Positions 47,413-52,025 of a stretch of DNA of 64,000 nucleotides are shown here, piece by piece. The stretch covers positions 1,797,125-1,861,124 of the forward strand of contig NZ_CP022522.1 of NCBI RefSeq assembly GCF_002850255.1. The letters are read 5' to 3'. Under the pieces are notes generated by a model. That model was not told the origin of the DNA. It saw nothing but the letters and a program-made list of their open reading frames with translations, and did no database searches. Made by a program: the position numbers and the translations under genes. How positions within the stretch are numbered: position 1 is the first letter of the stretch; every line of letters begins with the position of its first letter. Source of the DNA: Pseudoalteromonas sp. NC201. Its GTDB lineage: Bacteria; Pseudomonadota; Gammaproteobacteria; Enterobacterales; Alteromonadaceae.

Positions 47413-47497
47413 GCAGTTACTCAATTTGAAAGCTTTATCACATTTTACACTTTCATGAGTGAAAAATGCATATTTGTTGTGACGATGCTGATTATTC

Positions 47498-47694
47498 AAC
47501 CTGAACTCGGGATAACAACTTGTTCTCTAGCAGTTGTTATTCCTTACTACTGCGTTAAATTTGCTTGCAATAGGCCAGCTATTGACGCACAAATTTGCCT
47601 TGTATTAAGAAATAACTTCTGGCTAGAGTGATATTACACTTTTGAACTTGGATATTTTAGTGGATTAACTCACTTCTTATCCCGGGTTCAGGTT
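47498..47694. mobile_element. 197-bp MITE-like element (copy A)
   Basis: Terminal inverted repeats AACCTGAACTCGGGATAA (47498-47515) and TTATCCCGGGTTCAGGTT (47677-47694) match at 17 of 18 positions. Nested inverted repeats (CTCTAG/CTAGAG at 47525 and 47623, AATAG/CTATT around the centre) make it a long hairpin. It encodes nothing. A related, degraded copy is at 26259. No target-site duplication is clear. Non-autonomous transposable element is the likely identity. Confidence 0.75.
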
Positions 47695-47712
47695 ATTAAG
47701 CAAAACTCATGG

Positions 47713-47741
47713 CTGACAGTAAAAGACTATAGTTATATAAT
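47713..47741 (+). promoter_or_regulatory. Sigma70-type promoter of the sigma54 regulator
   Basis: CTGACA (47713-47718) and a perfect TATAAT (47736-47741) are separated by 17 bp. A start of transcription near 47748 is expected, within the operator at 47743-47760. Confidence 0.75.
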
Positions 47742-47742
47742 G

Positions 47743-47760
47743 CTCGCGAAATGTCGCGAG
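47743..47760. promoter_or_regulatory. Palindromic operator over the regulator start site
   Basis: CTCGCGA-AATG-TCGCGAG, perfect 7-bp arms, starts two bases after the TATAAT box and runs into the ribosome site of the next gene. The same motif recurs as a pair upstream of ccoG. Negative autoregulation by promoter occlusion is inferred. Confidence 0.75.
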
Positions 47761-47767
47761 GATTGCT

Positions 47768-49195
47768 ATGTCTATTATCAAACACTTTTTGGCGGACCCT
47801 AAATTATTATTGAATGCGGTTGGAGAGGGGATCTATGGTTTTGACCTTTCTGGTAACGCTGTTTTTGTAAACCCGGCCGCAGAGCGTATGACTGGGTGGC
47901 AAAGTGATGAGCTTTTGGGGAAAAAAATACATCAGTACCATCATCATAGTCATGCAGATGGGAGTGATTATCCTGCTGATGAATGTAACATCTACAAAAC
48001 GATGTTTGATGGTAAAACACGACAGGTAACCAATGAAGTGTTCTGGCGTAAAGATGGGAGCTGTTTTCCTGTAGAATATACCTCAACCCCAATCTTTAAA
48101 GATCAGCAAATTATCGGTGCAGTCGCGATATTTCGCGATGTGTCGCAACAGCACAAAACTGAAAATGCACTAAGAGAGGCGCTGAATAAAGTTCAAGTAC
48201 TGACTGAGCAACTTAAAGATGAAAATGCCTATCTGCTAGAGACATTAAATGAAAATTGGCAAGACTCGGGTTTGGTGGGTAGTAGCGCAATATTTCAGGC
48301 TATGTTGGCGCAGCTAGAACTGGTTAGTCAGACTGACAGTACGGTATTGGTTTTAGGAGAAAACGGCACCGGTAAAGAGCTTGTTGCTAGAAATCTGCAT
48401 CGTCTTAGTGAGCGCTCATCGCAACCTTTCGTTAAAGTAAATTGCGCTGCTTTTTCACCAACCTTGATTGAATCTGAATTGTTTGGACATGAAAAAGGAG
48501 CATTTACTGGAGCGAATGAAAGACGTAAAGGACGTTTTGAGTTGGCGGATAAAGGGACCATATTTTTAGATGAAATTGGTGAGTTACCGCTAGAAGCGCA
48601 AAGCAAGTTATTACGTGTATTACAAGAGCGAGAGTTTGAGCGTGTAGGGGGAAGTAAGTCGATTCAAGTAGATATACGTATAGTCGCAGCGACCAACAGA
48701 GATTTATGGCAAATGGTCGAGGGTGGGGAGTTTAGAATGGATTTATATTATCGTTTAAACGTTTTTCCTATTCGAGTGCCTGCACTAAGGGAGCGTATAG
48801 AGGATATACCCGTATTGGCCAACAATCTCATCGTGCAGCTCAACAAAAAGCTGGGCAAGCAACTACGCGGGATCTCTAAAAAGGCTATTCATGCGTTACA
48901 GCGTTATGATTGGCCTGGCAATATTCGAGAACTCCAAAACGTGTTGGAGCGCGAAGCGATATTATCTAAAGGTCGTTTAATTGATTTATCTCAAGCACTT
49001 AACGTTACTGAGCAGCATAAATCTGAAAACGGTGAACTGACTTTAGCGCAGGCGGAAGCTGAGCACATATTAAGAGTGCTAGAAATAAGTAACTGGAAGA
49101 TCGCTGGCAGCAACGGGGCGGCTGATAAGTTAGGACTACCCGAAAGTACGCTAAGGTCGAAAATGAAAAAACTAAAAATTGCTAAGCTTTCGTGA
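47768..49195 (+). CDS. PAS-AAA-Fis sigma54-dependent transcriptional activator
   Basis: 475 residues. A PAS domain (about 8-130, [26 protein letters not shown] ... FRDVSQQ) leads to the sigma54 activator AAA+ domain (about 165-390) with Walker [10 protein letters not shown], the sigma54-contact loop GAFTGA near residue 244, Walker [12 protein letters not shown] and arginine fingers ([11 protein letters not shown]). A Fis-type HTH closes it ([15 protein letters not shown]). GAGGA lies before the ATG. There is no receiver domain, so the PAS domain is the likely sensor, perhaps of redox or a small molecule. The twin sites and a sigma54 promoter downstream point to ccoG as its target. Confidence 0.93.
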
Positions 49196-49225
49196 TATTT
49201 CGCGCCTATTCGTGATATTTCGCGA
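49189..49225 (+). promoter_or_regulatory. Twin upstream activator sites for the sigma54 regulator
   Basis: TTCGTGATATTTCGCG occurs at 49189-49204 and again at 49209-49224, spaced 20 bp (about two helical turns). Both match the palindrome on the regulator's own promoter. They centre about 104 bp upstream of the predicted ccoG start, a normal enhancer distance. The first copy overlaps the regulator's stop codon. Confidence 0.75.
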
Positions 49226-49283
49226 TGTTGAAAATATAATAAAAATAAATACGATAAAAATCAAAGTGTTATAAACTTTCAGA

Positions 49284-49300
49284 TTGGTCTGAAAGTTGCA
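49284..49300 (+). promoter_or_regulatory. Sigma54 (-24/-12) promoter of ccoG
   Basis: TTGGTCTGAAAGTTGCA places the invariant GG (49286-49287) exactly 10 bases before GC (49298-49299), as sigma54 promoters require. The -12 half TTGCA is consensus; the -24 half is TGG without CAC. Expected start near 49312, 25 bp before the ccoG ATG. Confidence 0.75.
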
Positions 49301-49336
49301 ATATCAAACTCGTGTATTACCAATGTAGCAAATAAC

Positions 49337-50719
49337 ATGAAGTTTGATATCAAAGAAGAAGACATGATCATTAAGCCCTATAAACAAGAAGGGCCTATTT
49401 ACGTCAGAGAGCAAAAAGGTTTTTTCCAAAAAATAAGAAGAAACCTTGGCTGGTTTTTAATGTTAACTTTCGTTCTCATTCCTTGGATCCCGTACAATGA
49501 GCAGCAGGCCATCTTGCTTGATTTTGGTAAGCAGCAATTTAGGATATTTGGTGCCACCTTTCTCCCTCAAGACTTTATGATTCTAGCCTGGATTTTCATG
49601 GTGGGTGCCTTTGCTTTATTCTTTGTCACGACTTGGCTGGGTCGCGTGTGGTGTGGTTATACTTGCCCACAAACAATTTGGATGCTGATGTTCACTTGGG
49701 TTGAGCACCGAGTGGAGGGGACTCGCAACCAAAGAATAAAGTTGGACAAATCAAACTGGGATAGCAAAAAAGTCGCGAAGAAAACGGCCAAACACGCTAT
49801 TTGGTTGATAATTTCGGTGTTTACTGCCACTTCATTTATGGCCTATTTTATACCTGCAAAAGAGCTGTATCTAGACATGTTTACGCTTGAGTGGACTGGC
49901 CTTACTTCCTTCTGGGTATTTTTGTTCGCACTTTGTACCTATGGAAACGCGGGCTTTCTACGAGAGAAAATGTGTACTGTGGCATGTCCATATTCTCGTT
50001 TCCAATCGGTGATGTTTGACAAAGATACGTTAGTCGTCACTTATGATAGCGAACGTGGTGAAAATAGGGGTCGTCGTAAACGCAAAGAAGACCCAAAACA
50101 GCTGGGGCTCGGCGACTGTGTAGACTGTAATTTATGTGTTGAAGTGTGCCCCGCTGGTATTGATATTCGTAATGGCTTGCAATACGAATGCATTAACTGT
50201 GGTTTATGTATTGATGCGTGCAACGAAACGATGAATAAATTCGGCTATCAGCCAGATTTGATTAAGTATCAAAGTGAGCATCAGCAAGCGGGTAAAAAAT
50301 CCAATCCGTTTAGGTTAAAAATAGTAGGCTATGGTGCTATTACCGTATTGATAGTAGTCACTATGGTGATTTGGGCATTCAATCGAACACCAATAGAAGC
50401 TTCTGTCATTCGCGACCGTAATGCGCTTTATCGTGTTAATTATGAGGGGTTGGTCGAGAACCCATACACCTTAAGTGTAATAAACAAAACACAGCACGAT
50501 TTAACTTACACCGTGAGCTTAAAGGGACTGCCAGATGCGAAACTTACAGCTCCAATCACAACGCATATCGCTGGCGGCGACATGGCGTTAATCCCAGTAA
50601 CAGTGACCGCTGATGGCTATGAGCTTAAAGGTAAGCGCACTCCAATCCAATTCACTATAGAGTCGCAACAAGATGCCAATATTAGCATAACGAAGGACAG
50701 CTACTTCTATAAAAATTAG
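49337..50719 (+). CDS. ccoG: Cytochrome c oxidase accessory protein CcoG
   Basis: 460 residues. Several membrane helices, CGYTCPQTIW (residues about 110-119), CTVACPYSRFQ, then two [4Fe-4S] ferredoxin motifs CVDCNLCVEVCP and CINCGLCIDACN, and a C-terminal periplasmic beta domain. CcoG reduces Cu(II) for delivery to the CuB site of cbb3-type oxidases. Here it is away from ccoNOQP and stands behind a sigma54 promoter with enhancer sites. A terminator follows at 50740. The ribosome site before ATG 49337 is weak. Confidence 0.92.
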   Translation: MKFDIKEEDMIIKPYKQEGPIYVREQKGFFQKIRRNLGWFLMLTFVLIPWIPYNEQQAILLDFGKQQFRIFGATFLPQDFMILAWIFMVGAFALFFVTTWLGRVWCGYTCPQTIWMLMFTWVEHRVEGTRNQRIKLDKSNWDSKKVAKKTAKHAIWLIISVFTATSFMAYFIPAKELYLDMFTLEWTGLTSFWVFLFALCTYGNAGFLREKMCTVACPYSRFQSVMFDKDTLVVTYDSERGENRGRRKRKEDPKQLGLGDCVDCNLCVEVCPAGIDIRNGLQYECINCGLCIDACNETMNKFGYQPDLIKYQSEHQQAGKKSNPFRLKIVGYGAITVLIVVTMVIWAFNRTPIEASVIRDRNALYRVNYEGLVENPYTLSVINKTQHDLTYTVSLKGLPDAKLTAPITTHIAGGDMALIPVTVTADGYELKGKRTPIQFTIESQQDANISITKDSYFYKN

Positions 50720-50873: not shown

Positions 50874-51449
50874 ATGTTTAAAAATACATCACAACACTAT
50901 GGTTTGTTAGCCATCATCTTTCACTGGGTTAGCGCGCTTGCGGTATTTGGCATGTTTGGTCTCGGGTTGTACATGGTTGAACTCAGTTATTACGATCCTT
51001 TCTACCGTGATGGCTTACATATTCACAAAAGCATAGGAATACTGCTAGCAGCTTTGATAGTACTTAGACTGATTTGGAAGGTTACCAACCCTAGCGTGAA
51101 ACCCGAAAGCGAAGCCACTCCCATGGACAAATTGCAAAACACAATAGCACATGTCGTTCACGTCGTTTTGTATTTAGGTTTGTTTGGGCTGTTTGTCACA
51201 GGTTACTTAATTTCTACCTCAGATGGTAGAGCAATAGAGGTGTTCAACTGGTTTTCTGTTCCAGGTATTGGGGAGCTGTTTGATGAACAAAGTGATATTG
51301 CAGGCACTGTGCATTTATATATTGCTTGGGGGCTCATTGGATTAGTGGCGCTGCACATTGTGGGAGCGCTAAAACACCACTTTATTAATAAAGATTGTAC
51401 CTTAGTTCGAATGCTCAAGGTACCAAACGCTACAAAAGTTGAGGATTAA
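50874..51449 (+). CDS. Cytochrome b561
   Basis: 191 residues with four membrane helices. Heme-type histidines are visible in IIFHWVSALAVFG, GLHIHKSIGILLAALIVLRLIWK, and in the last helix (GLVALHIVGALKHHF). This is the di-heme b561 family, which moves electrons between quinol and periplasmic acceptors. The YceI gene follows 3 bp after its stop; b561-YceI pairs are common in proteobacteria. Confidence 0.9.
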   Translation: MFKNTSQHYGLLAIIFHWVSALAVFGMFGLGLYMVELSYYDPFYRDGLHIHKSIGILLAALIVLRLIWKVTNPSVKPESEATPMDKLQNTIAHVVHVVLYLGLFGLFVTGYLISTSDGRAIEVFNWFSVPGIGELFDEQSDIAGTVHLYIAWGLIGLVALHIVGALKHHFINKDCTLVRMLKVPNATKVED

Positions 51450-51452
51450 AAC

Positions 51453-52025
51453 ATGAAAAAAACAATCATTGCATTAAGCATGGCAGCTATGACCTTATCG
51501 GCCGGAGTAAATGCCGCGGATTATGTAATTGATACTAAAGGTGCACATGCCTTTGTAAACTTTAAAATTAAACATTTAGGATACAGCTGGTTGCATGGTC
51601 GATTTAATAGCTTCGAAGGCGACTTCAGCTATGATGCAAAAAACCCAAATGCGTCAAAAATCAATGTAGTGATCGATACTGCTTCTGTTGATTCGAACCA
51701 TGCAGAGCGTGATAAGCATTTGCGCGGTAATGATTTTTTAAACGTAAAAGCAAACCCTAAGGCGACTTTTAAGAGTAACTCGATTACTTTTAGCGATGAT
51801 ACAAATGCGAAGGTGAAAGGAAGCTTCACACTCAATGGGGTAACAAAGCATATCGAGTTTGATATTAAAAAAGTGGGTGAAGGTAAAGATCCATGGGGCG
51901 GCTACCGAGTTGGCTTTGAAGGTGAAACTCAGTTAAAACTTGCTGATTATGACATCGACTATGATCTAGGCCCAGCATCAACACACGTTACCATCGGTTT
52001 GCACTTAGAAGGTATTCGTAAATAA
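51453..52025 (+). CDS. YceI-family periplasmic lipid/isoprenoid-binding protein
   Basis: 190 residues with a cleaved signal peptide (about 1-21, ending VNAA). YVIDTKGAHAFVNFKIKHLGYSWLHGRF and the repeated beta pattern ending with DIDYDLGPASTHVTIGLHLEG are YceI hallmarks: a lipocalin-like barrel that binds polyisoprenoid quinones. Co-transcribed with cytochrome b561. Confidence 0.93.
   Translation: MKKTIIALSMAAMTLSAGVNAADYVIDTKGAHAFVNFKIKHLGYSWLHGRFNSFEGDFSYDAKNPNASKINVVIDTASVDSNHAERDKHLRGNDFLNVKANPKATFKSNSITFSDDTNAKVKGSFTLNGVTKHIEFDIKKVGEGKDPWGGYRVGFEGETQLKLADYDIDYDLGPASTHVTIGLHLEGIRK

Follow-up and report, generated by a model that had tools for sequence, protein, structure and literature searches.

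The 64,000-nt stretch of Pseudoalteromonas sp. NC201 DNA analysed here (the window) carries a regulator gene in tandem with a ccoG gene, and their sequences suggest that the regulator is probably an autorepressed sigma54 activator with essentially a single target, the accessory cupric reductase CcoG2, whose synthesis it would induce. We consider it very likely that this circuit is real. An earlier proposal (the original prediction) had described a self-contained circuit in which an autoregulated sigma54 activator of the PAS type targets ccoG, and comparative evidence supports such an arrangement: the predicted binding sites occupy conserved positions and are nearly restricted to the regulator-ccoG locus.

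When the window was searched for YTCGYGAYATTTCGCG with up to three mismatches, eight matches were obtained versus 2.35 expected, the maximum of 100 shuffles being seven. Three of these matches are exact (47745-47760 on the minus strand, 49189-49204 and 49209-49224 on the plus strand) and recover the copies that had been placed over the regulator's start and, as a pair 20 bp apart, before ccoG. Another copy, with one mismatch, lies within the regulator coding region at 48122-48137. Although the predicted positions stand, the distinction originally drawn between a palindrome and a pair does not: because the two sites of the pair are imperfect palindromes themselves, all copies represent one kind of site, the 14-bp dyad CRYGAHATWTCRYG, which occurs four times in the window (Table 1). 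Across the 5.38-Mb genome, the unmismatched pattern TCGYGAHATNTCGCG was confined to the 1.6-kb regulator-ccoG stretch.

Table 1. Features of the regulator-ccoG locus (positions in the window).
Feature	Position	Strand	Remarks
MITE-like element	47498..47694	.	inverted repeats 47498-47518 / 47674-47694; adjoins regulator promoter on its 5' side
Probable sigma70 promoter of regulator	47713..47741	+	CTGACA (47713-47718), 17 bp, TATAAT (47736-47741)
Operator O1, dyad CGCGAAATGTCGCG	47745..47758	.	spans expected transcription start of regulator
Regulator	47768..49195	+	475 aa; PAS - AAA+ (GAFTGA) - HTH_8
Intragenic operator, dyad CGCGATATTTCGCG	48124..48137	.	within VAIFRD codons, 379 bp downstream of O1
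Upstream activator site 1, dyad CGTGATATTTCGCG	49191..49204	.	overlaps regulator stop codon
Upstream activator site 2, dyad CGTGATATTTCGCG	49211..49224	.	20 bp from site 1
IHF-consensus site AATCAAAGTGTTA	49259..49271	+	between pair and promoter, at -46
Inverted repeat AACTTTCAGA-TTGG-TCTGAAAGTT	49274..49297	.	10-bp arms, overlaps -24 element
Predicted sigma54 promoter TTGG-N8-TTGC	49284..49299	+	GG 49286-49287, GC 49298-49299
ccoG paralogue (CcoG2)	49337..50719	+	460 aa, cupric reductase family

To follow the arrangement beyond this genome, we scanned 394 genomes from the order, purely at the DNA level, for two dyads arranged as this pair, using the reversed pattern as a control. The pair was found in 16 of them and the control in none (0/394), and all 16 matches sit between a regulator orthologue and a ccoG. 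Regulator orthologues at E<=1e-150 were present in 37 of the 394 genomes, 36 of them with a ccoG downstream within ~1.3 kb; the exception (G242) has a regulator of 52% identity with no ccoG and no 13/14 dyad nearby. With the regulator alone as query we further collected 80 named loci, in 76 of which a ccoG match lay downstream in the fetched stretch, the remaining four being distant relatives with no ccoG in that stretch (L086-L089). ccoG begins at most 470 nt from the regulator in 73 of the 80 and further off in three (L065, L066, L085). Where sequence intervenes between the two genes, as in L154 and L156, the paired dyads stay by ccoG, and by eye the same holds for a degenerate pair in L066. 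The layout, taken as regulator-ccoG adjacency, paired dyads, -24/-12 spacing and an operator upstream of the regulator, is kept in Pseudoalteromonas, Colwellia, Thalassotalea, Motilimonas, a Shewanella locus and a separate genus, f6. A chance motif was ruled out by the window shuffles, the genome uniqueness, the genus scan and the DNA-only search of the order. The cytochrome b561 and YceI genes that follow ccoG in the window (50874-52025) both stand beside ccoG in only 8 of the 80 named loci and are therefore outside the conserved circuit. As separate observations, a gammaproteobacterial MAG has a subunit-III-like oxidase gene after its regulator-linked ccoG (L083, 7054-7671), and an Oleiphilus-like MAG has its ccoG separated from the regulator and the accompanying dyads by two genes, a small one and one resembling a sulfite/nitrite reductase gene (L085, 5714-7811).

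The region before ccoG reads, from its sequence, as classic sigma54 enhancer anatomy, with dyads at -104, an IHF site at -46 and a -24/-12 element. The centre of the paired dyads (49207.5) precedes the GG in the -24 element by 79 bp and the start expected at ~49311 by 103.5 bp, in agreement with the ~104 bp given originally, and the GG-N10-GC sequence named there was likewise confirmed. Among 73 named loci (L065, L066 and L085-L089 omitted), the spacing of the pair was 18-20 bp in 69 and its centre lay 78-82 bp before the GG in 65. GG-N10-GC was present at the best-scoring element in 62 and missing in 11, including at least two (L071, L072) in which the scoring chose the wrong place. Perfect matches to the IHF consensus WATCAANNNNTTR occurred in 26 of the 73 loci versus 0.5% of 1460 shuffles, with imperfect ones in the other 47, and in 50 loci the centre of the best IHF-like site lay 20.5-23.5 bp ahead of the GG. 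The core of the inverted repeat that overlaps the -24 element is kept in 39 of the 73 loci and was not seen by eye in Colwellia-type loci; this repeat is possibly the site of a second regulator.

At the other end of the circuit, O1 lies over the expected start site of the regulator, which suggests autorepression. Of 72 named loci (L011-L082), 70 had a dyad of at least 13/14 in the stretch from 110 nt before the regulator start to 10 nt beyond it, and a -10-like hexamer preceded the operator by 6-14 nt in 38 of 55 Pseudoalteromonas loci versus 26 of 220 background stretches. Directly upstream of this promoter, within 47492-47702, is the MITE-like element, whose 21-nt terminal arms are 90% complementary. 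Among the 43 matches listed for it in the genome, ten are near full length, counting the copy in the window, and many are partial; the nine other near-full copies share 84-95% identity. As two loci (L013, L014) by eye have other sequence upstream of the same regulator promoter, and the element is repeated in this way, we place it outside the conserved circuit.

The original inventory of sites had listed three copies, all of which stand, and had missed both the IHF-consensus site and the intragenic dyad; the intragenic operator is thus an addition to that prediction. As coding sequence, this dyad specifies part of the peptide VAIFRD, where the PAS domain ends. It might be a by-product of codon preference or of an mRNA constraint at this position and no operator at all, a reading we hold to be unlikely. 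The VAIFRD codons happen to permit the dyad, and the peptide is common in PAS domains. To obtain an expectation under codon usage, synonymous codons were sampled from the genes' own usage and a 13/14 dyad was sought within a 30-nt window, in 91 loci (55 named Pseudoalteromonas loci, 19 of genus f6 and 17 other named loci). Against the by-product reading, the dyad was observed in 72 of the 91 loci versus 6.7 expected, in counts that, because related genomes are not independent, are not probabilities. The separate genus f6 contributed 18 of its 19 loci (1.5 expected), Pseudoalteromonas 46 of 55 (4.6 expected) and the other named loci 8 of 17 (0.65 expected), leaving 19 of the 91 loci below 13/14. 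No dyad occurred elsewhere in the 117.7 kb of regulator coding regions scanned in these loci. Moreover, 13 loci carry the dyad solely at a second register 10 bp downstream, about one helical turn on, which also speaks against a by-product, and six carry it at both registers; this pattern resembles a turnover of the site by a single helical turn with the protein sequence kept. Less favourable to an operator, twelve further loci of other genera, which partly overlap the named loci and stand outside the 91-locus count, had the first-register dyad in only three cases (0.25 expected), and two of the twelve (L209, L213) had a 13/14 dyad elsewhere in the regulator gene.

A control was also made within the gene. 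Among 354 six-codon windows ranked by synonymous conservation, the top three overlap the intragenic dyad, with AIFRDV first, although the LDEIGE window, ranked fourth, follows close behind and leaves the by-product reading some room. Taken together, the comparison of sequences indicates that codon choice holds the intragenic dyad in place. In Pseudoalteromonas loci with both sites, O1 is 375-383 bp from the first-register dyad, so that the two sites are not strictly phased on the helix. The intragenic operator might work by looping to O1, or it might form a roadblock.

We then looked at how far the sites extend beyond this locus. The strict form CGYGATATWTCRCG was found in 51 of 60 Pseudoalteromonas genomes, with most matches, by our reading of their positions, at the regulator-ccoG locus. 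The genome scan proposed with the original prediction thus returned few other exact sites in the genus. Ten exact dyads read as off-locus among the 60 genomes were inspected by eye. They lie at TonB-receptor-like genes (L130, L138), at Clp-like genes (L132, L134), in or before other genes (L136, L137) and, in L131, L133, L135 and L144, ~23 bp before a pomA-like motor gene; the four genomes concerned look alike, and the motor gene is a possible lineage-specific second target in them. Because the reversed control pattern also matches many genomes of the genus, we attribute the off-locus dyads mostly to chance. A wider regulon was rejected, as the ten dyads yielded no second conserved target, with the pomA-like case as a possible one. 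In the window genome, a one-mismatch site at 1363539 appears by eye to be inside a dehydrogenase-like coding region.

These distributions also bear on which protein uses the dyads. Palindromes of this kind could suit many HTH dimers, and it is from sequence that binding by the regulator is proposed, so another transcription factor might occupy them while the neighbouring sigma54 activator works elsewhere. We regard this as very improbable: the dyad flanks the regulator's own gene and lies within it, exact sites are mostly at the regulator-ccoG locus across the 60 genomes, two genomes without the regulator (G026, G030) also lack the exact site, and the pair stands at a typical enhancer distance from the -24/-12 element.

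The regulator's best named relatives, at 94-99% identity, are from P. flavipulchra, Pseudoalteromonas sp. HM-SA03, Pseudoalteromonas sp. S2755 and P. piscicida, and the window belongs with the piscicida/flavipulchra group of the genus. Its AAA+ domain matches the sigma54-interaction family (PF00158, E 7.5e-74), and GAFTGA is present in all of 26 aligned regulators, chosen by hand, except L089 (GSFTGA). The C-terminal Fis-type HTH scored 23.8 bits for PF02954 (cut-off 22). As no receiver domain was among its Pfam matches, the protein does not class as an NtrC-type response regulator. It also scored below the cut-offs of the equivalogs for NorR (NF003451 of NCBIfam; 356.8 bits versus 476), NifA (389.4 versus 528.85), NtrC (323.2 versus 558.6) and the formate hydrogenlyase activator (397 versus 830). 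The top structural matches of its AlphaFold model (mean pLDDT 82.7, pTM 0.52) were sigma54 activators. Within the PAS domain, H55, H59, H60 and C73 are invariant among the 26 aligned regulators and H58 is nearly so. However, a His/Cys motif of like kind occurs in 118 of the 120 PAS relatives listed, many of them orthologues (1405 proteins were above threshold), and being so common the cluster gives no pointer to copper in particular.

CcoG2 scored 544.6 bits for the CcoG equivalog TIGR02745 (cut-off 316.7) and contains the domains PF13746 (4Fe-4S dicluster) and PF11614 (FixG_C, Ig-like). It is not the only CcoG of this genome, which has a second, canonical ccoG at 3763871, with 50% identity to CcoG2 and adjoining srkA-like and dsbA-like genes (named by sequence reading). 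As ccoN with its operon is at 2388834 of contig C1 and the CcoG2 gene at 1846461, CcoG2 is outside the cco/fix cluster, although location there is no strict criterion for the CcoG (FixG/RdxA) family. A tree was calculated for 52 hand-picked CcoG proteins. One branch unites 31 that are regulator-linked (support 92/73, short of the starred level), and another (100/98) unites 15 of the 16 that are unlinked; outside both, mostly as long branches, are the unlinked L183 and the linked L083, L084, L085, L090 and L184. From these sequence relationships CcoG2 is read as an accessory paralogue beside canonical CcoG. At least one ccoG was present in all 60 Pseudoalteromonas genomes. One genome (G022) retains CcoG2 beside a regulator reading with one internal stop, and four (G026 and G030 and, judged by E-value and number of matches, G360 and G424) were without regulator and CcoG2. 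No clear FNR box was seen by eye upstream of ccoN.

The original prediction had called CcoG a copper-delivery protein; a study in Rhodobacter describes it instead as a cupric reductase, and reports higher copper tolerance upon CcoG over-production and more sensitivity in its absence (PMC7558416). Such effects on copper tolerance would fit a CcoG2 that serves to detoxify copper or to supply Cu(I) in general, and not to assemble cbb3, with a regulator that senses copper stress, as would the placement of the CcoG2 gene apart from the cco operon and the additional presence of canonical ccoG. We give this reading limited credence, since the company that CcoG2 keeps argues against it. ccoN was present in nine of nine genomes tested, including one (G070) with CcoG2 as its sole ccoG. 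Furthermore, in G057 (L193, C2:431000-441000) downstream of the regulator lie two degenerate dyads (one 12/14, the other lower), an IHF-consensus site and, by eye, a TTGG-N8-TTGC element, after which come a small ORF, ccoG, a ccoH-like gene (our reading, with no NCBIfam match) and a gene for a copper P-type ATPase like CcoI. In this separate lineage the regulator is thereby linked with genes for cbb3 maturation.

From these features we infer how binding of the regulator, repression, activation, the role of IHF and CcoG2 activity may fit together. The regulator would be a one-component bacterial enhancer-binding protein, synthesized at a low level from its sigma70 promoter. By binding the 14-bp dyad it would repress its own gene at O1, aided through a DNA loop or roadblock by the second operator ~380 bp into the gene. 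The two tandem dyads ~104 bp before the ccoG start would hold the regulator as an enhancer, and IHF would bend the DNA between enhancer and promoter. Upon a signal to the PAS domain, the AAA+ ring would open sigma54 polymerase at TTGG-N8-TTGC, and the output would be extra CcoG2, a possible source of Cu(I) both for assembling cbb3 oxidase and for handling copper. That the signal is redox, oxygen or copper state is a guess, made with low confidence. More speculatively, and with more doubt than conviction on our part, the circuit could be a copper- or redox-sensing sigma54 switch of several marine gammaproteobacterial families that provides cupric reductase on demand, its set point fixed by the DNA loop of ~380 bp between O1 at +1 and the intragenic operator.

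That CcoG takes part in oxidase assembly by reducing copper was recognised recently, and to our knowledge the regulation of this step has been described mainly for the FNR/FixK pattern. The marine system described here is small, with one regulator, essentially one target and four dyads, and it allows footprints, start sites and the behaviour of mutants to be predicted exactly. We also know of few operators inside the gene of a sigma54 activator itself, and the present one illustrates a DNA site held under protein-coding constraint. The literature searched, which was thin on subscription journals, held no account of a circuit joining sigma54, a PAS regulator and ccoG. Titles and the starts of abstracts gave none of an intragenic operator in a sigma54 activator gene, a search with the letters of the dyad returned papers that by title were unrelated, and the term ccoG was absent from PMC13377108.

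Several known systems share parts of this design. One is NorR-norVW, a local sigma54 circuit with multiple enhancer sites, negative autoregulation, IHF and a sigma54 promoter; here, too, a one-component AAA+ activator stands beside its target with several sites, an IHF site, a sigma54 promoter and putative autoregulation. However, NorR has a GAF domain where this regulator has PAS, the DNA site is another and the score for NF003451 is below its cut-off. Moreover, the norR and norVW genes are divergent, whereas the genes here are in tandem, with an operator inside the regulator gene and ccoG as the target. Control of fixGHIS by FixLJ-FixK or FNR-type systems likewise regulates ccoG/fixG, there together with the cbb3 genes; it differs in using a CRP/FNR-type activator and in having ccoG inside the oxidase cluster. 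Proteins of known structure such as DmpR, FleQ and NtrC1 have the AAA+ sigma54 activator fold in common with the regulator, and differ in sensing domain and target. The GalR/LacI systems use an auxiliary intragenic operator that aids repression, and a comparable aid from within a coding region is proposed here, although in a sigma54 activator gene and with the operator held by codon choice over several genera. The originally claimed novelty of the ccoG circuit holds to the extent that no description was found, but it has a related precedent in NmpR of Myxococcus xanthus (PMC11841059), the nearest one found. In the part of that paper available, NmpR, a response regulator acting with sigma54, controls an oxygen-use regulon to which an operon for a P-type ATPase and cbb3 oxidase belongs, and ccoG/fixG is not named among its targets there (PMC11841059). 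NmpR resembles the regulator described here in being a sigma54 activator and in the paired dyads that precede a transcription unit related to cbb3; it differs, according to the same part of the paper, in being of the two-component NtrC type, in its GCGCA-N5-TGCGC sites and in having about ten further predicted promoters (PMC11841059).
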